From Bifidobacterium crudilactis (GTDB lineage: Bacteria; Actinomycetota; Actinomycetes; Actinomycetales; Bifidobacteriaceae): a DNA stretch of 64,000 nucleotides. A program made the translations under genes and the position numbers. Each line of letters starts with the position of its first letter. Position 1 is the stretch's first letter. The stretch spans positions 680,634-744,633 of the forward strand of contig NZ_JHAL01000002.1 of assembly GCF_000738005.1 (NCBI RefSeq), in the 5' to 3' direction. The notes under the pieces are model-generated. The model was not told where the DNA came from. It worked only from the letters and a program-made list of their open reading frames with translations, and ran no database searches. Positions 8,062 to 53,846 of the stretch are shown here, in pieces.

Positions 8062-8082
8062 CGGGGAACGTGAATGCGAATC

Positions 8083-8235
8083 TCAATCATTGAGGTGGGC
8101 GACGGCGTAGTTGGTTTGTTTGCTTGGTGGTGTTTCTGCCGTATTGGGTATTGTATCCACGATTTTGGGTGTTTCATCGCTGAGGGTTTCCGTATTCGGT
8201 TTCGTGCTGGTTATGGTTGTTCCGAATGGAGGGAG
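8083..8235 (-). pseudogene. 3' remnant of a phage-like or integrase-like gene
   Basis: The minus-strand frame that ends at 8083 codes for a polar Thr/Pro/Asn-rich tail (…TLSDETPKIVDTIPNTAE…AVAHLND) followed at the right distance by a strong minus-strand terminator. Upstream it runs antisense into the intact LytTR gene, so only the tail is left. Its position beside tRNA-Asn fits the end of an integrated element. Which family it came from cannot be told. Confidence 0.35.
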
Positions 8236-8241
8236 ACATTG

Positions 8242-8688
8242 ATGGAGATTGATTACAGCCAGGATTCTACTGCAGATGCCCCGCGGGTTGTGGTTTATGC
8301 GCGGCAGCGTGATGCCGGCATCAATGCATTGCTGCAGAGGATCTCCCTTTTGGATACTCGTGACATGATTCAGGCCCGTTCGCCCGATGGCGCGGTTATT
8401 CTCAAGGTTGCTGATATCGCGTTGTTCCGTTCCAGCGACAAGCAGGTGTTCGCCAGATTCGGCGGACACGATCTGGTCGTCAGGGAGACGTTGAAGATGT
8501 TGGATCGGAACCTGCCCGAACACTTGTTTCAGAGAGTATCCAATAGCGCCATAGTCAACTTGCGGTTTCTCCGACGGTTCGATCTGCATGCCAATGGTGT
8601 CGTCAGTGCGACGCTACGCGACGAGACAAGCGTCAAAGTCACCGGAACATACATGAACGCCCTCAGAGAAAGGTTGATATCATCATGA
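8242..8688 (+). CDS. LytTR DNA-binding domain protein
   Basis: 148-residue regulator with a LytTR domain over roughly residues 45-145 (VADIALFRSSDKQVFARF, VVRETLKMLDRNLPEHLFQRVSNSAIVNLRFL). No receiver domain is present, so it belongs to the stand-alone LytTR group that is usually paired with a small membrane protein. GGAGGGAG at 8228-8234 fixes the ATG at 8242. Its stop overlaps the next start (ATGA). Such pairs are thought to be membrane-controlled regulatory systems in which the membrane partner holds the regulator back. Targets unknown. Confidence 0.85.
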   Translation: MEIDYSQDSTADAPRVVVYARQRDAGINALLQRISLLDTRDMIQARSPDGAVILKVADIALFRSSDKQVFARFGGHDLVVRETLKMLDRNLPEHLFQRVSNSAIVNLRFLRRFDLHANGVVSATLRDETSVKVTGTYMNALRERLISS

Positions 8689-9604: not shown

Positions 9605-9995
9605 CTTGTCGCGTGGATTCTTGGTACAGCTGAATGCTTGATTGCAGATATCAGTTCCGTTATGAAATGGTACCAAGAGACGATAGCCGGCATGCACTAC
9701 GGGGAAGCTTGTGGATCATCATTGCCGAATCATCAGAACCGCTAGAACACGACCGTTTTCTATACAATTCCAATGCGCGATGATTCCGGATGTTTTCGCG
9801 TTCAGACGTATACGGAAACCCGTGAATTGATCAACGTGCAGTATCTTCAATCTTGTGGTGACCAGGCAACCAAGACATCTGTCTGGACGCAATATTGTGA
9901 TACCACACCATATCCGAGCATCCTGGTTCTGCATAGTGCCGGTGCATCCAGTCAAGGTACAAGTCCGGAAGGCTCGTGGAAGGAGAGGAACGACG

Positions 9996-10300
9996 CACAA
10001 GCTCGCGAAGCAGGATTTGAGAGAGCTGACCGAATGGGTGGAGTCAGCTGGACCTGTCGATTCCGGTATCACGTTCGGCGCAGACGAGGCTGACAGGGCG
10101 GCGGAGGAAACGCTGCGGATGATGGACGTCCCTCGTTCGGGCACCTCGGCCGACCGGAGACGGCAGCAACCCGCGATGTTAAGTGCGTTTGCTGCGCGAG
10201 TTGAACTGCGAGTTTGATGAGTATGCTCGAGATGAGCGGGCCAAGGCGAGCGAGGTCGTCCGGCGCGCGGTCAGCGAGTGCATCCACCGATGCAAGTCCG
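9996..10300 (+). pseudogene. Broken ribbon-helix-helix (CopG-type) antitoxin-like gene
   Basis: Two fragments in different frames read together as one RHH protein. The first (9996-10173) gives KLAKQDLRELTEWVES and GADEADRAAEETLRMM. The second (10174-10300) gives VRLLRELNCEFDEYARDE and KASEVVRRAVSECI, the signature of an RHH DNA-binding segment. A single frameshift near 10173 separates them. Such proteins are usually antitoxins; no toxin gene is recognisable next to it. Confidence 0.55.
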
Positions 10301-10738
10301 ATCCTCGCCAACATCTAGGTGTATATGTCCATCGGCTGTTCCAGGGCAGTACCCCGGAACATGGCGAAAGTTGTAAAAGTCTGACGGAGAACATGGACAT
10401 CACCGGCCCTGTGGTGCGGGTCTGGGATGTGTTCCGCGTGACGGCATCGTTCGAAGGTGATCTGGTCCGGGATCGCACCGACCTGAGACTGCAAGTGAAC
10501 AGCCTCAAGGGACGCAAGGATGGTCATCCCTTGAAGCTGAATATGAGGCAGCTCGCACGAATCCGCGAGATATATGAGAGCCGTGTGCTCGTGGAATGTA
10601 GGAAATCGTGTACGCAGGTTCAGCGAGGTGCCTCCTTTGCCTGTAGGGGATTGCATACCTGTATTCGATCTCGGCAGAAAATGAATATCGTTTAGTATGT
10701 AGTAATACATATTTCCTGTTTGAGGGGCGGGTGGCACG

Positions 10739-11842
10739 ATGACGAGCGGAGGGTTCGATTCAGGTGTTGTCGTTGAGCGGCTAATCACTGATGTCCGAGA
10801 AACTCTTGAAAAGGTGTTCCTCGATATTGAAAACTCATGGAGAACGGTCACTGAGGGTATCAGCAGCATGCCATTCGATGCTGCTGATATTGTAAAACAG
10901 GCGCGAAAAATGGCTGGAACAGGGAAAATGTTTCGTCCCAAGCTTTGTATCTGGTCGTATATTGCAAGTCGAGGATCGGTTTCTGATTCTTGCTATCGAG
11001 AACTGGTGCAGGTGACAAGTGCTTTGGAGCTATTTCACACCTCCGCCCTGATCCATGACGATGTTATGGATAGAGCGGACACCAGACGCGGTTTCCCCAG
11101 CATAAACGCATGGGCCAGGGATTCGATGGCTAACATTCCAGGGCAGTCAGAGGCAGCAAACCTTTTTGGTGACAATGTAGCCATTTTGGCTGGAGATATT
11201 ACCTTGGCCTCATCCTTGTCGTTAGCTTTTACCTCTTCTGATGCGATACGACGAATATGGACGGACCTGTTGAATGCCGTCTATGCCGGACAGACGTTGG
11301 ATATTTTAGGCTCGACAGGAATCGATACCGATGAAAAACGTATTGAGATTGTGGGAGCGTTGAAAACCGGCTCCTACTCTGTCTGGTATCCACTTCGTTT
11401 TGGTGCTGTTATCGGTCAGGCGAATGAAATGCAAGTATCGTTGTTGCGGCGATATGCCTTGCATGTATCGCGGGCATTCTCGTTGCGTGATGATTATCTC
11501 GGCGTTTGGGGGGATCCAGACGTGATGGGAAAACCAGCTGGGCTTGATTTGGCCGAAGGAAAATCTACTTCGATACTCCGGTTGGCGAAAAACAAGCTCA
11601 GTTCACAGGATTTCGAACGCATAGCTAAAATGAAATCCCAAGGCACTGTGTCAGAGTCCGAAATTCGATATGTCACAGACCGACTTCAGCAAGCTCAAAT
11701 CGATCAGGATATCCAGACCCTAATCAACCATGAATATGAGGAGTCCCTCGCGATGCTACAGCCGGCTAGAGGAGTATTGACCCCGGTGGGTGTGGAAGGC
11801 TTAGCTGAGATCGCGAAACAGATTGCATACCGCGTAAAGTGA
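10739..11842 (+). CDS. crtE: Polyprenyl diphosphate synthase (GGPP synthase-like, CrtE/IdsA)
   Basis: 367-residue trans-prenyltransferase that extends dimethylallyl or farnesyl diphosphate with isopentenyl diphosphate. Seen: first Asp-rich motif DDVMD (107-111), RPKL earlier, and second motif DDYLG (251-255), the form common in actinobacteria. The residues 4 and 5 before the first motif are Ala103 and Ser102, both small, which in this family allows chains longer than farnesyl; GGPP is therefore likely. The gene is clearly richer in A and T than its neighbours, suggesting transfer or a different history. It lies before desaturase and phytoene-synthase genes. The product length is inferred, not shown. 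Confidence 0.85.
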   Translation: MTSGGFDSGVVVERLITDVRETLEKVFLDIENSWRTVTEGISSMPFDAADIVKQARKMAGTGKMFRPKLCIWSYIASRGSVSDSCYRELVQVTSALELFHTSALIHDDVMDRADTRRGFPSINAWARDSMANIPGQSEAANLFGDNVAILAGDITLASSLSLAFTSSDAIRRIWTDLLNAVYAGQTLDILGSTGIDTDEKRIEIVGALKTGSYSVWYPLRFGAVIGQANEMQVSLLRRYALHVSRAFSLRDDYLGVWGDPDVMGKPAGLDLAEGKSTSILRLAKNKLSSQDFERIAKMKSQGTVSESEIRYVTDRLQQAQIDQDIQTLINHEYEESLAMLQPARGVLTPVGVEGLAEIAKQIAYRVK

Positions 11843-11870
11843 AACGCCACCTGCACGCATTCGACTTTTC

Positions 11871-12179
11871 GGGATGTGGAGGTATATGGAAGGTTGCTTG
11901 ATCTCGCTGCCGTCGAATATGCTCCGAAGATTCGCGTCGTAGTCCGAGGAGATCACGAAATTGTGTGTGGACAGACTCTCGTAGGTGCCCGTCACTCCCC
12001 AGTAGAACACCAGACAGGAACATGAATACTTCATGGAGTCAATGCGTTCGGGCGTATACCGTCCGCGTACCTTTGCCTCGTTGACGAGTTCCTTCATCGC
12101 GTAGGGGAAATCGGCGTTGCACACCACGTCGTCCGCTTCGATCAGCTCACCGTCGACCTGGATGCCAAGCACACGCGAA
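11871..12179 (-). pseudogene. Inverted 309-bp internal copy of the desaturase gene
   Basis: This segment is the reverse complement of 13512-13820 inside the crtI-type gene, with only two mismatches and no gaps over 309 bp (GGGGAGATG in the gene, GGTGAGCTG in the copy). It starts 28 bases after the crtE stop. It would code for the middle of the enzyme (about residues 257-359) on the minus strand, without start or end, so it is not a gene by itself. The near identity points to recent duplication or ongoing recombination between the copies. Confidence 0.95.
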
Positions 12180-12744
12180 CCCCTTCCTGCGCTTTTCGCA
12201 GTTCGTGTCATGTAGCCCCATCGGGCTTGTATCTGCGTGGTACGGCGATTCGCCTGTCATGTCCGTGCAGTGGTGGCCGGAGCTGCTCGAAGTGGTGTCT
12301 GAGAGCTGCCTTCACAGTAAGTCGTGAGCGGAGACAGGAAGCTCGTTTCACTGGTTGATGCCTGTCCGGACAGTGTCACTGCTGTGTCAATAATTGTTTT
12401 CGACAGGTGCTCGGGATAAGCTTCGTAACGGGATGGGTTGGGATAACCGGTGCAACTAGGACTTTCATCTATGGTGAGTTATGACATGTGAACTAGGACA
12501 TGTGAGTTAGGACTGGATGAATAGGAGCGACATACCGCGAACATGCAGCAGTCCGATAGATGAGGGATTCGACGTGCGAGGTGCAGTGTCCGCGCGCTTT
12601 ACAGGCGTCGTCGCTGCCGTTGAAGTTTCAGCACGTCAGGAACAGAAAGTGTCGAGACGTTGTCGAGAATTCGCAGGCTTCGTCGTAAACGAGGCGTGTA
12701 CGGTGATGGAAACATTCCCTGCACGACCAGAGAAGAAGGATAAC
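12180..12744. other. Upstream region of the desaturase gene
   Basis: About 560 bases between the inverted copy and the chosen crtI start. An open frame from 12517 runs in phase into crtI, but its first 76 codons do not look like the family. The notable content is a set of 14-bp tandem repeats (12474-12515). I see no other gene. Confidence 0.5.
12474..12515. repeat. Three 14-bp tandem repeats before crtI
   Basis: Units GTGAGTTATGACAT, GTGAACTAGGACAT and GTGAGTTAGGACTG follow each other without gaps; a degenerate fourth copy lies at 12450-12464. The position in the leader or promoter of crtI suggests a regulatory array or a slippage tract. Confidence 0.7.
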
Positions 12745-14250
12745 TTGACCAAGCGCGTCGTCGTTGTCGGTGCAGGTATCGGTGGCTTGTCCGCCGCCAT
12801 TCGATTGCAACATGCCGGATATGCCGTCGAAATCTATGAACGGCTGAATATGCCGGGCGGGAAAATGCATCAGATCCGCGAGAAGGGTTTCACCTTCGAC
12901 GTGGGTCCCACCATCGTGATGATGCCTTCGGTGTATCAGGACATCTTCCGACTGGCAGGCAAGGACCCGGACGACTATATTCCCATGACCAGAGTCGACC
13001 CGATGTATCAGGTCTTCTTCCAGGGCGATCCGATGAGGGAGTACACGGTGGATAACGACCTGGTGCATCTCATGAAGATGGTCGAAGGCAAAGGTCCCAG
13101 GAACGCCAAAGGTTTCCTCGACTATCTCTCCTCCATGTACACCAGATACCAGGTCGCCTTCCAGCACTTCATCACACGGCCCTTCCGTAAGCCGAGCGAC
13201 ATCTACAACCCCTTTATGCTCCGTCAGGCGTTGAAGCTCAAGACCTTTGACAGTGCCGACCATATGATGGCGAAGTTCATGCCTGACGAGGATCTGCAGC
13301 ATATGCTGAGTTTCCAAACGCTGTACATCGGCGTCTCACCGAAGAACGGCCCTTCGCTGTACAACATCATTCCGATGATCGAACTGTTGTACGGGGTGTG
13401 GTACGTCAAAGGCGGCATGCACACGGTGGCCGAGCAGATGGCACGGCTGTTCACCGAACTGGGGGGCGTCATCCATTACGGTGCCGACGTTCAACGCATC
13501 GTCACCAAGGATTCGCGTGTGCTTGGCATCCAGGTCGACGGGGAGATGATCGAAGCGGACGACGTGGTGTGCAACGCCGATTTCCCCTACGCGATGAAGG
13601 AACTCGTCAACGAGGCAAAGGTACGCGGACGGTATACGCCCGAACGCATTGACTCCATGAAGTATTCATGTTCCTGTCTGGTGTTCTACTGGGGAGTGAC
13701 GGGCACCTACGAGAGTCTGTCCACACACAATTTCGTGATCTCCTCGGACTACGACGCGAATCTTCGGAGCATATTCGACGGCAGCGAGATCAAGCAACCT
13801 TCCATATACCTCCACATCCCATCTCAGACCGAGCCCGACATGGCTCCTGAAGGACAGTCCGCCTTCTATGCGCTGCTGCCCATATCGGAGCTCGGAACGG
13901 CACAGTACGAATGGAACGAGCAGACAGTGAAGCTGTATCGCGACAAGGTTCTGGATGCGTTGAGCGCACTTCCCGGACTCGAGCACCTGCGCGAGAACAT
14001 CATCATGGAGCGTATGTTCACGCCTGAGGATTTCGAGCGAGAGTTCCACGCCTATCGCGGCGCCACTTTCGGCTTGCAGCCGACCTTGCGACAAAGCAAC
14101 CATTGGAGACCGCAGGCCAAGGCCAAGCATTGCCAAGGCTTATATTTCACCGGCAGCAGCACCCATCCCGGTGCCGGAGTGCCGATCGTGATGCAGAGCG
14201 GGAAGATCTGTGCGGAGGAACTGATGCGTGACGAGGAAGGAACACTGTGA
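12745..14250 (+). CDS. Phytoene/diapophytoene desaturase (CrtI/CrtN family)
   Basis: 501-residue FAD-dependent desaturase that would introduce double bonds into the colourless C40 or C30 carotene made by the next gene. Seen: N-terminal dinucleotide fold VVVVGAGIGGLSAAIRL, MPGGKMHQ, FDVGPTIVM, the internal FQTLYIGVSPKNGPSLYNIIP and YVKGGMHTVAE, and the C-terminal TGSSTHPGAGVPIVMQSGK, the hallmark of the family. I chose the TTG at 12745 because it follows AGAAGGA and gives the usual N-terminus; an ATG at 12706 is the main alternative. Its stop overlaps the GTG of the synthase gene. C30 versus C40 cannot be settled by eye. A 309-bp inverted copy of its centre lies upstream. Confidence 0.9.
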   Translation: MTKRVVVVGAGIGGLSAAIRLQHAGYAVEIYERLNMPGGKMHQIREKGFTFDVGPTIVMMPSVYQDIFRLAGKDPDDYIPMTRVDPMYQVFFQGDPMREYTVDNDLVHLMKMVEGKGPRNAKGFLDYLSSMYTRYQVAFQHFITRPFRKPSDIYNPFMLRQALKLKTFDSADHMMAKFMPDEDLQHMLSFQTLYIGVSPKNGPSLYNIIPMIELLYGVWYVKGGMHTVAEQMARLFTELGGVIHYGADVQRIVTKDSRVLGIQVDGEMIEADDVVCNADFPYAMKELVNEAKVRGRYTPERIDSMKYSCSCLVFYWGVTGTYESLSTHNFVISSDYDANLRSIFDGSEIKQPSIYLHIPSQTEPDMAPEGQSAFYALLPISELGTAQYEWNEQTVKLYRDKVLDALSALPGLEHLRENIIMERMFTPEDFEREFHAYRGATFGLQPTLRQSNHWRPQAKAKHCQGLYFTGSSTHPGAGVPIVMQSGKICAEELMRDEEGTL

Positions 14251-15251
14251 CATTCGCCGAAGGAGGTCCAGCGTTGTCCGATTCGAAGATTGCCGAATCG
14301 TTTGAGGCCGCAGAGGCAATCATGCGAGAGCAGGCGGTGAGTTTTTACCAGGCGTTCCGCAGTCTTCCGCCGGAACGTTTTCGCGCGGTGACGGCTGTGT
14401 ACGCGTTCTGCCGTTACGCCGATGATGTGGTCGACGAGGGAGGTTCATCCTCGCTGCCGCTGCTGGATGATCTCGAAAGGGGCGTCCATCACCTGTATCA
14501 CGGTGTCGCCGACGCGGAAGATGGCGGAGATTCGACGCCAGACGTAGCTTCGGGCAAGCCCTGGTGGGATGCATTCGCATTCAGCACGGCGGCATACCAT
14601 GTCCGGGAAGCGGACCTGATGATGCAGATCACCGGGCAGCGCATGGACGCGCACTTCCATGATCTGGAAAATACTCAGGAACTCGTGGAATACGCGCGTC
14701 TGGTCGCAGGATCGGTAGGAAGGGTACTGGTGCCGATTCTGGTCAAGGACAGTACGGTCATCGGGAACGACGAATTCATGAAGGCATGTGAATCCCTGGG
14801 CGTGGCCATGCAAATCACCAACATCCTACGAGATGTGGGAGAGGATATCCGGGAACGTGACCGCGTGTACATCCCACGCAGCGTGATGCTCGAATTCGGC
14901 ATATCACGAGCTGACCTCGAAGCGCTCTCGAAACCTCGGCAGGAAGAGCTTCGCACGGATGCCGAAAACACTGCGACCGCTCTTGATGTGCCTCAGAATT
15001 TCGTCAGGCTGTGGGAGCATCTCGCCGCTCTCGCCGATGACTGCTATCTCCCATACGAGCGTTGGATATCGGCCTTTGACGAGTCCGCACGTTTTCCATT
15101 GCTGTGCGCCGCGAAGCTGTACCAGGCGATAGAGCAGGCGGTGCGTGACCACGACTACAACTGCTTTACGCGACGTTGCTATACCGATGCGACGACGCGT
15201 GAGACCATCGTCCGAGATATTCTGTCCGCACAACGCCCGGTACAGGACTGA
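14247..15251 (+). CDS. Phytoene/squalene synthase family protein
   Basis: 334-residue head-to-head prenyl synthase that condenses two prenyl diphosphates. Seen: both Asp-rich motifs, ADDVVD (Asp59, Asp60, Asp63) and NILRDVGED (192-200), plus RVYIPRSVM. It starts with GTG inside the stop of the desaturase gene (GTGA) and has a strong GAGGAAGGA site. With an upstream prenyl synthase that has small pocket residues, GGPP and phytoene (CrtB activity) are favoured over the C30 CrtM route, but this is inference. The insertion around residues 75-95 is acidic and variable. Confidence 0.9.
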   Translation: MTFAEGGPALSDSKIAESFEAAEAIMREQAVSFYQAFRSLPPERFRAVTAVYAFCRYADDVVDEGGSSSLPLLDDLERGVHHLYHGVADAEDGGDSTPDVASGKPWWDAFAFSTAAYHVREADLMMQITGQRMDAHFHDLENTQELVEYARLVAGSVGRVLVPILVKDSTVIGNDEFMKACESLGVAMQITNILRDVGEDIRERDRVYIPRSVMLEFGISRADLEALSKPRQEELRTDAENTATALDVPQNFVRLWEHLAALADDCYLPYERWISAFDESARFPLLCAAKLYQAIEQAVRDHDYNCFTRRCYTDATTRETIVRDILSAQRPVQD

Positions 15252-15276: not shown

Positions 15277-16731
15277 ATGTCCAATATCCTGAGTCTGATC
15301 GTCTCTGTGGCGTATATACTTCTGGTGCTCGGGTGCTCCGCCTTGATCGCTCGTCATCAGGGGAATCGCAGCGAATTCTCAAGAAAATTCGTGCATATCA
15401 TGGTCGGGAATTGGGTGTTCATCACACCGTGGTTCACATCGCTGTGGGCTGTGGCGCTCGTGCCGGCAGCCTTTGTGATCATCAACGCTCTGAGCATTCG
15501 CTTTGCCTTCTTCACATCAATGGCCAGAGAGCACGAGGACTACGGGACGGTATATTACGCATTGAGCATGCTGCTGCTCAGTTCGGCCGCCTTTGCTCTC
15601 GGATGGCGTGAACTGTCCTTCATCGGTCTGCTCACCATGGCGTATGGTGACGGCTTCGCCGCCCTGGTCGGCAAACGTTGGGGCAGACACCACCCCTTCT
15701 CATTCGCTCCGGATAAAACACTCGAAGGCAGCATCACCGTGGCTGCCAGCGCATTCATCGTCACGCTTGCTTGTGTGATGGCGTTCCCCGAACTCAGAGC
15801 GCAATACGAGCCCTGGCTGACGATGGGGGTGATTCCAGCTCTTATAGCAGTGCTTGCGGCATTTGTGGAACTCACAGCAGGCCGTGGCTGCGATAATCTG
15901 TCGCTTCCCATCTCGACCGGTATAGGCGCTTCGCTGTTATTGCGCTACAGCAGCGTCGGTCTCTATGTATATCTGCTGCTCGCCCTGTCGATACTGCTCA
16001 TCGCCTACGGACGCAAGGCGATAACCGAGGACGGCATCGTGGCGGCGATACTGACCGCAGCCACCCTCTACACTTTCGCCAATGTCTGGATAGGTATCAG
16101 CCTGCTGCTGTTCTTCGTGGCGGGTTCGGTGGTTTCCGCCATCAGCAACGACGCCAAACGAGCAGGTGAACGACGGCAGATCAGCGGCAGCGCCCGCAAC
16201 TGGAAACAGGTGATCTGCAACTCCCTGCCCGCAAGCGCGGCCTTGTGGATTGCCCAGTTCTCCACGGAGAAGAACGTGGCCATGCTGATATGCTTCTGCG
16301 TGTTCGCCGCCGCATGCGCCGATACCTTCTCATCGGAGATCGGCATGCTCGGAGGTGGCAGGGTGCTCAGTCTGACGACGCTGCGTCCGACTCCGCACGG
16401 CACCTCGGGCGGTGTATCCTTGCTCGGCCTCGCGGCAGGACTGTTGGGCAGCGCCTTGCTGGCCGTGCCCAGCATCGTGCAGTTCGGATTCAAGGGATTT
16501 GTTTTCGTGTGTCTGCTGGGCGTATGCGGGACGCTGATCGACAGCATTCTCGGTTCCTCCATCCAGCAGCGTTTCAAAGACAGGAAGGGCCAGTTGATGG
16601 ATGTTCCTGCCTATGCGAGGCAGCAGGTTTCCGCGGGCATCGCCCATATCGGCAACAGTGCGGTCAATCTGCTGTCATTGTGTGCCGTCTGTATCCTGGC
16701 GTATGCCGCCAGCGGCGTCATCATTCCATGA
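15277..16731 (+). CDS. Fused phytol/dolichol-kinase and DUF92 (VTE6-like) membrane protein
   Basis: 484-residue polytopic membrane protein made of two enzymes that are usually separate. Residues about 1-225 match the phytol/dolichol kinase family (FSRKFVHIMVGN, then AYGDGFAALVGKRWGR and DKTLEGS). Residues about 235-484 match DUF92 (ITEDGIVAAILTA, ACADTFSSEIG, TPHGTSGGVS). In plants and cyanobacteria VTE5 phosphorylates phytol and VTE6 phosphorylates phytyl phosphate. Together they make a prenyl diphosphate from the free alcohol. AGGGGAG at 15262-15268 sets the start. Position in a carotenoid-type operon suggests recovery of geranylgeraniol or a related alcohol; activity is not proven. Confidence 0.85.
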   Translation: MSNILSLIVSVAYILLVLGCSALIARHQGNRSEFSRKFVHIMVGNWVFITPWFTSLWAVALVPAAFVIINALSIRFAFFTSMAREHEDYGTVYYALSMLLLSSAAFALGWRELSFIGLLTMAYGDGFAALVGKRWGRHHPFSFAPDKTLEGSITVAASAFIVTLACVMAFPELRAQYEPWLTMGVIPALIAVLAAFVELTAGRGCDNLSLPISTGIGASLLLRYSSVGLYVYLLLALSILLIAYGRKAITEDGIVAAILTAATLYTFANVWIGISLLLFFVAGSVVSAISNDAKRAGERRQISGSARNWKQVICNSLPASAALWIAQFSTEKNVAMLICFCVFAAACADTFSSEIGMLGGGRVLSLTTLRPTPHGTSGGVSLLGLAAGLLGSALLAVPSIVQFGFKGFVFVCLLGVCGTLIDSILGSSIQQRFKDRKGQLMDVPAYARQQVSAGIAHIGNSAVNLLSLCAVCILAYAASGVIIP

Positions 16732-16740
16732 AAGGACATC

Positions 16741-17406
16741 ATGACCGTTTCAGCACCAGCATCCTCGGCAATACGATATCGGCTTGCACGGCCGGGCGAA
16801 GAGGAGGGTCTTGGTCGTCTGTCCGCGGAATCCTTCGGCGACTACCCTTTTTTCTCCTTTGCGTTGAGAGAGCCGTTTGACTCGTACCAGAAGTATCTGG
16901 ACTATATGACTCGTCTCCATCGGATGCTCATCAAGGCATACATCAAGAAGCAGGTATGCCTGGTCGGTGTCAGCGACGGCGCCGTGGTATCGGTGGCTTT
17001 GCTCCATGACCCTCGTTCACGGGACATAGGTGTCACCGATTACATTCTTGCCGGTGGTCTGGGTCTGGTACGCGGCGTAGGGTTGCGCCGTCTGCTGGCG
17101 TTCTTCGATATCAGTGAAGCGGCGCAGTCGGCGTGCACGGCAAAGCATCCGGATGCCTGGTATGTCGAGTTGCTGGCTGTGGATACGCAGCTCAAGGGGA
17201 GAGGGCTGGGCGGCAAGATGATTCACGATTGCGTGGAACCCTATGTGCGTGGGCATGATGGTCGCAGTCTGAGTCTGATTACGAATACGGAACAGAACCG
17301 CCGCTTCTATATGTCCAAAGGCTTCACCGAATTCTCGGAATCGACCTTGTCATGCCGCGGACAGACCATAGGCAACTGGAGTTTCTTCAAGCAGCTTGAA
17401 ATCTGA
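16741..17406 (+). CDS. GNAT-family acetyltransferase
   Basis: 221-residue N-acetyltransferase fold protein. Seen: the acetyl-CoA loop LAVDTQLKGRGLGGKMI (around residues 142-158) with the Q/R-x-x-G-x-G pattern, and a C-terminal SLITNTEQNRRFYMSKGFTE segment. GAAAGGA 6 bases before the ATG and a gap of only 10 bases from the preceding stop place it last in the carotenoid-type operon. GNAT enzymes act on amines, peptides and sometimes sugars. A role in modifying the end product or in resistance is possible but there is no direct sign of either. Confidence 0.85.
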   Translation: MTVSAPASSAIRYRLARPGEEEGLGRLSAESFGDYPFFSFALREPFDSYQKYLDYMTRLHRMLIKAYIKKQVCLVGVSDGAVVSVALLHDPRSRDIGVTDYILAGGLGLVRGVGLRRLLAFFDISEAAQSACTAKHPDAWYVELLAVDTQLKGRGLGGKMIHDCVEPYVRGHDGRSLSLITNTEQNRRFYMSKGFTEFSESTLSCRGQTIGNWSFFKQLEI

Positions 17407-53471: not shown

Positions 53472-53706
53472 ACCCAAAAAGACTACACATAGGGATTGGA
53501 AAACCATATCAACAACGCCGTTGATTTCTATTTGGTCCCAGTCATTGTCTGATTCACAGTACGCATGTTACTCCGTGCACGGTACTCATATGCTCAGCAA
53601 GCAATGCAGTCACTACAACGGTTGTACTGGAGTTTCGCCACAAACCAGGTATTGGATTGTGATAAGAAATCCAGTCATATAGACATACGGCACCTATAAG
53701 GGTAAC

Positions 53707-53846
53707 AGTGCCGTGTGCGTGTGGTTATGTCAGCAAGTGTGGTGTTGCTTGCGATATAACCACACGACGTTACGAGGAATAGTGCTGCATGCGTGTGGTT
53801 ATGTCAGCAAGTGTGGTGTTGCTTGCGATATAACCACACGACGTTA
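53707..53846. repeat. Two tandem palindromic repeats (74-bp period)
   Basis: A 56-bp core is identical at 53717-53772 and 53791-53846; the copies start with AGTGCC/AGTGCT at 53707 and 53781. Each core folds into a hairpin with arms CGTGTGGTTAT and ATAACCACACG and inner GCAAG/CTTGC. The spacing and palindromy resemble small mobile or REP-like elements. Confidence 0.85.

Follow-up and report, generated by a model that had tools for sequence, protein, structure and literature searches.

In the pneumococcal spnIII locus (also called ivr or cod), truncated inverted copies of hsdS are part of the layout. Gene-altering programmed inversions (Milman et al. 2023) and intragenic inversions (Chanin et al. 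2024) have reportedly been recognized from observed orientation differences. For the 333-bp repeat of the pneumococcal locus, one experiment gave 16.8% switching per colony and another an average of 15.8%, with 12.7% in a creX mutant; inversion was unchanged without recA and slightly lowered without the invertase CreX (PMC6620402, in excerpt). Classical invertons combine an invertase with short repeats of 10-40 nt (PMC11892184, in excerpt), and the Rin shufflon of Bifidobacterium prophages acts on a phage tail gene that has a tyrosine recombinase gene as its neighbour (PMC6109161, in excerpt).

We analyzed a long inverted repeat that overlaps a carotenoid desaturase gene (crtI) in Bifidobacterium crudilactis, almost certainly strain LMG 23609, which came from raw cow milk and has a 6-contig draft genome of 2,362,816 bases (PMC5540593, in excerpt). 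The window, that is, the whole stretch of DNA analyzed, covers 64,000 nucleotides (680634-744633 of contig C2, which is 1,716,957 bases long). As in the gene-altering and intragenic inversions, a breakpoint would lie within a coding sequence and the protein would be altered or truncated; those are said to come from observed orientation differences, whereas a single orientation is assembled here. The locus is like spnIII in that a full gene is accompanied by an inverted partial copy, with long, near-identical arms of 309 bp as against 333 bp in spnIII (PMC6620402, in excerpt). Unlike spnIII, where a swap of specificity-gene alleles was measured, the copy is a plain internal one and the predicted flip would break the gene. 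Like classical invertons, the invertible segment would carry a presumed promoter, but the arms exceed inverton repeats about tenfold in length, one arm is within a gene, and no intact invertase was found in the window. The Rin shufflon shares the genus and an inversion that decides which coding sequence is complete; in contrast to its target, crtI is a chromosomal metabolic gene without an adjoining recombinase. The listed literature on Bifidobacterium carotenoid genes, pigment in this species, pigment phase variation and inversion in Bifidobacterium contained no report of the locus, a weak negative as it covers open-licence papers only.

The earlier note had described 11871-12179 and 13512-13820 as gapless reverse complements that differ at two positions, and the base-by-base comparison bore this out (mismatches at 12145/13546 and 12149/13542, zero gaps). 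A repeat finder run on the window returned a slightly wider pair (11871-12182 and 13509-13820; 312 nt, 99% complementary, 1326 nt between them); the third difference, at 12180/13511, is the repeat edge, and the flanks beyond it match no further. One of the two mismatches is silent, and both are at most 35 nt from one arm end, which has a probability of about 0.025 under random placement in a test picked after the data were seen. When the 309-bp block was searched against the whole genome, it matched two places (E values of 7.7e-160 and 4.0e-157), with no third copy.

The length of the pair was compared with a self-BLAST control (words of 14, pairs inside one stretch, at least 60 bp and at least 80% identity) on 21 stretches totalling 464 kb, namely twenty 20-kb stretches of contig C2 plus the window. 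Apart from the 309-bp pair, no inverted pair exceeded 76 bp, and the others were dispersed repeats of 69-76 bp, so the 309-bp pair is far from what chance provides. The B. crudilactis chromosome carries a family of such dispersed repeats of about 70 bp in both orientations (for example, in stretch L044, 9212-18702). At 53697-53844 of the window, 74-bp units form a tandem pair that is 91% alike, with an inverted repeat inside each unit as judged by eye.

Table 1 Features of the crtI locus, in positions of the window.
Feature	Position	Strand	Evidence
C-terminal remnant of a decayed serine recombinase of the DNA invertase/resolvase type	10363..10590	+	phrog_125, E 0.002, profile 102-178/254; tblastx to the recombinase on contig C3, 49% over 59 and 62% over 16 residues
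Polyprenyl synthetase ('crtE'-like) gene, lower G+C; a different gene is upstream of crtI in three relatives	10739..11842	+	PF00348, 3.8e-42
Open frame across the fragment, 136 codons; its end at 11801 would be the stop of the flipped crtI	11801..12211	-	ORF list; in-silico inversion
Left arm, inverted partial crtI copy without start or C-terminus	11871..12179	-	Encodes crtI residues ~256-359 (501-aa numbering)
Segment inverted if the arms recombine: crtI upstream region and first 255 codons	12180..13511	.	In-silico inversion
Single-copy spacer, presumed crtI promoter region	12180..12744	+	Sigma-70-like match at 12367-12394 (+), chance level
14-bp direct repeats GACATGTGAACTAG, 2.2 copies, upstream of crtI, possible regulator site	12483..12513	+	Repeat search
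crtI family carotenoid desaturase gene, 501 aa, TTG start, intact as assembled	12745..14250	+	TIGR02734, 462.6 bits (cut-off 238.1); P0001 exact match; alignment with three relatives
Right arm, counterpart inside intact crtI	13512..13820	+	Repeat search; genome search; base-by-base comparison
crtB/crtM-like squalene/phytoene synthase gene, 4-nt overlap with the crtI stop	14247..15251	+	PF00494, 2.6e-53
DUF92 membrane protein gene, same position in three relatives	15277..16731	+	PF01940, 1.8e-52
GNAT acetyltransferase-like gene, presumed operon end	16741..17406	+	PF13673, 1.5e-5, 25.4 bits (cut-off 23.6)

The gene that holds the right arm belongs to the crtI family, as its score is above the curated cut-off of TIGR02734. 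Its start is the TTG at 12745, where both the database protein P0001 and the similarity to relatives begin, and for the same reason the ATG at 12517, which opens a 577-aa frame, was rejected as an over-extension. In PADLOC, crtI matched a family with a desaturase name (E 1.5e-18), which we take as ordinary homology between desaturases, and the polyprenyl synthetase had no match. Neither the polyprenyl synthetase at 10739-11842 nor the crtB-like protein reached an equivalog cut-off. The synthetase gene has a G+C content of about 48% (56% for the window), and the genome encodes a second polyprenyl synthetase at C2:1094815-1095750. In 24 of the 26 other genomes of the genus the best matches to the first synthetase are only 29-36% identical, and the remaining two have no match, so judging from these comparisons the gene was probably acquired.

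In the only orientation that was assembled, crtI is intact (ON). The earlier note had proposed that inversion of 12180-13511 would join the start of crtI to the fragment and end the protein near 11801, and in silico the inversion indeed gave a minus-strand product of 381 aa, composed of 359 crtI residues and 22 foreign ones, with its stop at 11801. This product has Leu instead of Met at residue 268 and lacks the last 142 of the 501 crtI residues. If the crossover fell in the arm interior, residue 268 would instead be Met, because the mismatches are on the inner side of the arm. The flipped protein covers positions 1-283 of the 443 in the Amino_oxidase profile, compared with 1-442 for the intact frame, and the missing segment aligns with the C-terminus of the solved desaturase 4dgk; the predicted product is almost certainly a dead desaturase. 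The C-terminal remainder of crtI and the synthase gene stay on the plus strand in silico, without their present upstream region. The parting of crtB and later genes from their promoter, also foreseen earlier, holds in the sense that the in-silico flip leaves them across the breakpoint from this upstream region, where the promoter is presumed to be. As crtI and crtB overlap by 4 nt, the flip is expected to affect both. On paper, the inverted repeats flank a segment whose inversion would change the product.

The region 11700-12800 has one promoter-like match, which equals the chance rate, and no terminator-like site was found in it. The spacer at 12180-12744 was considered as a multi-copy element and rejected, being single copy in the genome. 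A LytTR-family regulator gene is located at 8074-8688 (profile match).

A protein search with the fragment frame retrieved P0121, a 116-aa protein whose cluster comprises four sequences on two contigs, the longest with 226,860 bases (1,716,957 for the window contig). It spans from just before Leu 268 across the left junction to the frame end with two substitutions; none falls in the 93 residues of the arm part and both are in the 23-residue tail, including one at the codon spanning the outer edge of the arm. The same fragment and left junction thus recur in a second assembly, which is probably that of another strain. P0121 carries the fragment-type Leu, as the ON orientation predicts. P0121 has no start Met, suggesting a contig end within the arm; such an end is expected where a short-read assembly meets a repeat and is no firm evidence on mixed orientations. 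The unchanged arm and the mismatches clustered at one end could reflect recombination or conversion that keeps the arms alike, or simply a young duplication.

To place the copy among relatives, crtI was searched in 189 genomes of the family, and four carried it (E ≤ 1e-20): that of the window and G005, G006 and G016, each with one crtI of 77-81% identity. None of these three has a second copy or an inverted repeat of at least 30 nt touching crtI, so by this comparison the inverted copy is peculiar to B. crudilactis among the four crtI-bearing family genomes, and it was discarded as a shared trait of crtI loci in the family. A scan of the class found matches to the arm protein in 9 of 394 genomes (E ≤ 1e-8), with two copies only in the genome of the window, in a sample that includes few close crtI relatives. 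The three relatives conserve the order of crtI, synthase and DUF92 genes by DNA similarity, with DUF92 confirmed by Pfam, and have an aldo/keto reductase gene upstream of crtI in place of the polyprenyl synthetase. Two further differences were observed among them: G016 has a 52-nt inverted repeat (83% alike, 26 nt apart; L016 10424-10553) between the aldo/keto reductase gene and crtI, and the crtI of G006 (L018 9288-11057) has about 30 extra in-frame residues near the position of the right-arm start in the window, as has G005 with about 16. At residue 268, crtI has Met, and the fragment and the four closest relatives compared (the three genomes and P0002) have Leu. It is likely but not firm from this pattern that crtI changed and the fragment did not; of 1024 homologues found, the 120 listed vary widely at this residue (26 E, 16 L, 2 M).

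The DNA to the left of the arms contains two decayed genes. The serine recombinase remnant at 10363-10590 is 1.3 kb left of the left arm, and the N-terminal part of the profile, which is the catalytic part in such recombinases, is unmatched. A related serine recombinase with a full open frame is encoded on contig C3 beside a transposase-like frame that we take to be IS3-like; serine invertases act at short specific sites. At 9936-10290 there is a frame-shifted copy (79% DNA identity) of a small gene at C2:485210-485558, whose open frame looks by eye like a ribbon-helix-helix protein, presumably. Both decayed pieces sit between LytTR/DUF3021 genes and the polyprenyl synthetase. The decayed remnant was rejected as a flipping enzyme. 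A dedicated invertase in the window was likewise rejected: PF00239 and PF00589 searches of the genome (E ≤ 0.001) placed all matches outside it, the nearest at C2:600726-601253, about 79 kb to the left. Within the two families PF00239 and PF00589, the window thus lacks the dedicated recombinase of an invertase-driven inverton, and the 309-bp arms are beyond the short-repeat range of about 10-40 nt. The genome encodes recA. The plasmid collection gave no match to 11840-12520.

We favor, as the probable explanation, a young inverted partial duplication that is recombinogenic and yields pigment-off cells as a by-product. An internal 309-bp piece of crtI would have been duplicated and inserted in inverted orientation into the gap between the polyprenyl synthetase gene and crtI, most likely when a rearrangement or a template switch took place in DNA that mobile elements had already scarred, and would have stayed near-identical since. 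The inverted copy of the crtI piece and the acquisition of the polyprenyl synthetase gene may share one history. With long arms that are nearly identical and separated by 1.3 kb, general recombination should be able to invert 12180-13511. The inversion would truncate the desaturase and separate crtB and the genes after it from the upstream region, and the reverse flip would restore all of them. Pigment-off cells would then arise from the duplication as a by-product, not as the output of an evolved, enzyme-driven switch. Flipping at the B. crudilactis arms is plausible by analogy, because inversion at the pneumococcal 333-bp repeat is frequent in the absence of RecA and largely independent of the invertase. 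The duplication origin, inversion in living cells, the inversion rate and the lack of selection are what we infer.

A selected phase switch is the strongest competitor, though an unlikely one. The fragment would be kept because reversible flips give pigmented and unpigmented cells, through general and possibly RecA-independent recombination without an invertase. One orientation leaves crtI whole and the other truncates it, which fits this reading, as do the joint effect expected on crtI and crtB through their 4-nt overlap, an arm length near that of the pneumococcal repeat, a frequent switcher without RecA (PMC6620402, in excerpt), and a fragment common to a second source with its arm unchanged at the protein level. 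On the other hand, the flipped product retrieved 91 proteins at E ≤ 1e-150, all of 492-529 aa and hence none in the flipped form, although the 90% clustering of the database could hide one; P0001, for example, is a 90% cluster of 60 sequences that could do so. Among the 126 proteins compared with the flipped tail, again under 90% clustering, only P0121, the fragment itself, shares at least five consecutive residues with it. The window is also free of PF00239 and PF00589 matches, and the copy is found in only one of the four crtI-bearing genomes among the 189 of the family. The earlier suggestion of a phase switch for pigment therefore stands as far as the geometry goes, which the in-silico flip reproduces; that it works as a switch is less likely: a single orientation is assembled, the protein search, a weak test under 90% clustering, gave no flipped form, the two recombinase families searched have no match in the window, and the three crtI-bearing relatives lack the copy. 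An invertase-free on/off switch of a bifidobacterial pigment gene, arisen from one duplication and with its arms kept alike by conversion, is likewise doubtful.

A role of the fragment as RNA or as a donor is less likely still. Read-through from the polyprenyl synthetase gene could yield a crtI antisense or a long hairpin, or the fragment could convert codons 256-359. A plus-strand transcript over 11871-12179 would be antisense to crtI by construction, and the region has no terminator-like site (11700-12800); against this, the one promoter-like match there is at the chance rate, and the fragment RNA folds no better than its shuffles (z +1.06). A known RNA at the locus was rejected with the fold being ordinary and the two Rfam matches of the window being tRNAs elsewhere. 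The copies do differ, as a donor requires (Met268 in crtI, Leu in the fragment and the four closest relatives compared), but two mismatches, one of them silent, leave little to donate, and residue 268 is highly variable in the 120 aligned homologues. Nothing pointed to a function of the fragment itself.

An assembly artefact, in which a chimeric join or a misplaced repeat in the draft genome created the copy, is very improbable: the assembly is a draft of six contigs and P0121 is without a start Met, as would be expected if its contig broke off within the arm, but the arms differ by two mismatches, their flanks are unrelated, and the same fragment and left junction are encoded with two substitutions on another contig, which largely answers the doubt about an artefact that had been raised with the original observation.

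Under the favored reading, a young inverted duplication, the meaning of the locus depends on whether cells flip. If they do not, it would be an ordinary partial duplication. If they do, it would represent a minimal route to phase variation without an invertase, opened in a bifidobacterial metabolic gene by a single accidental duplication, and the pigment would offer a color reporter for long-repeat inversion.
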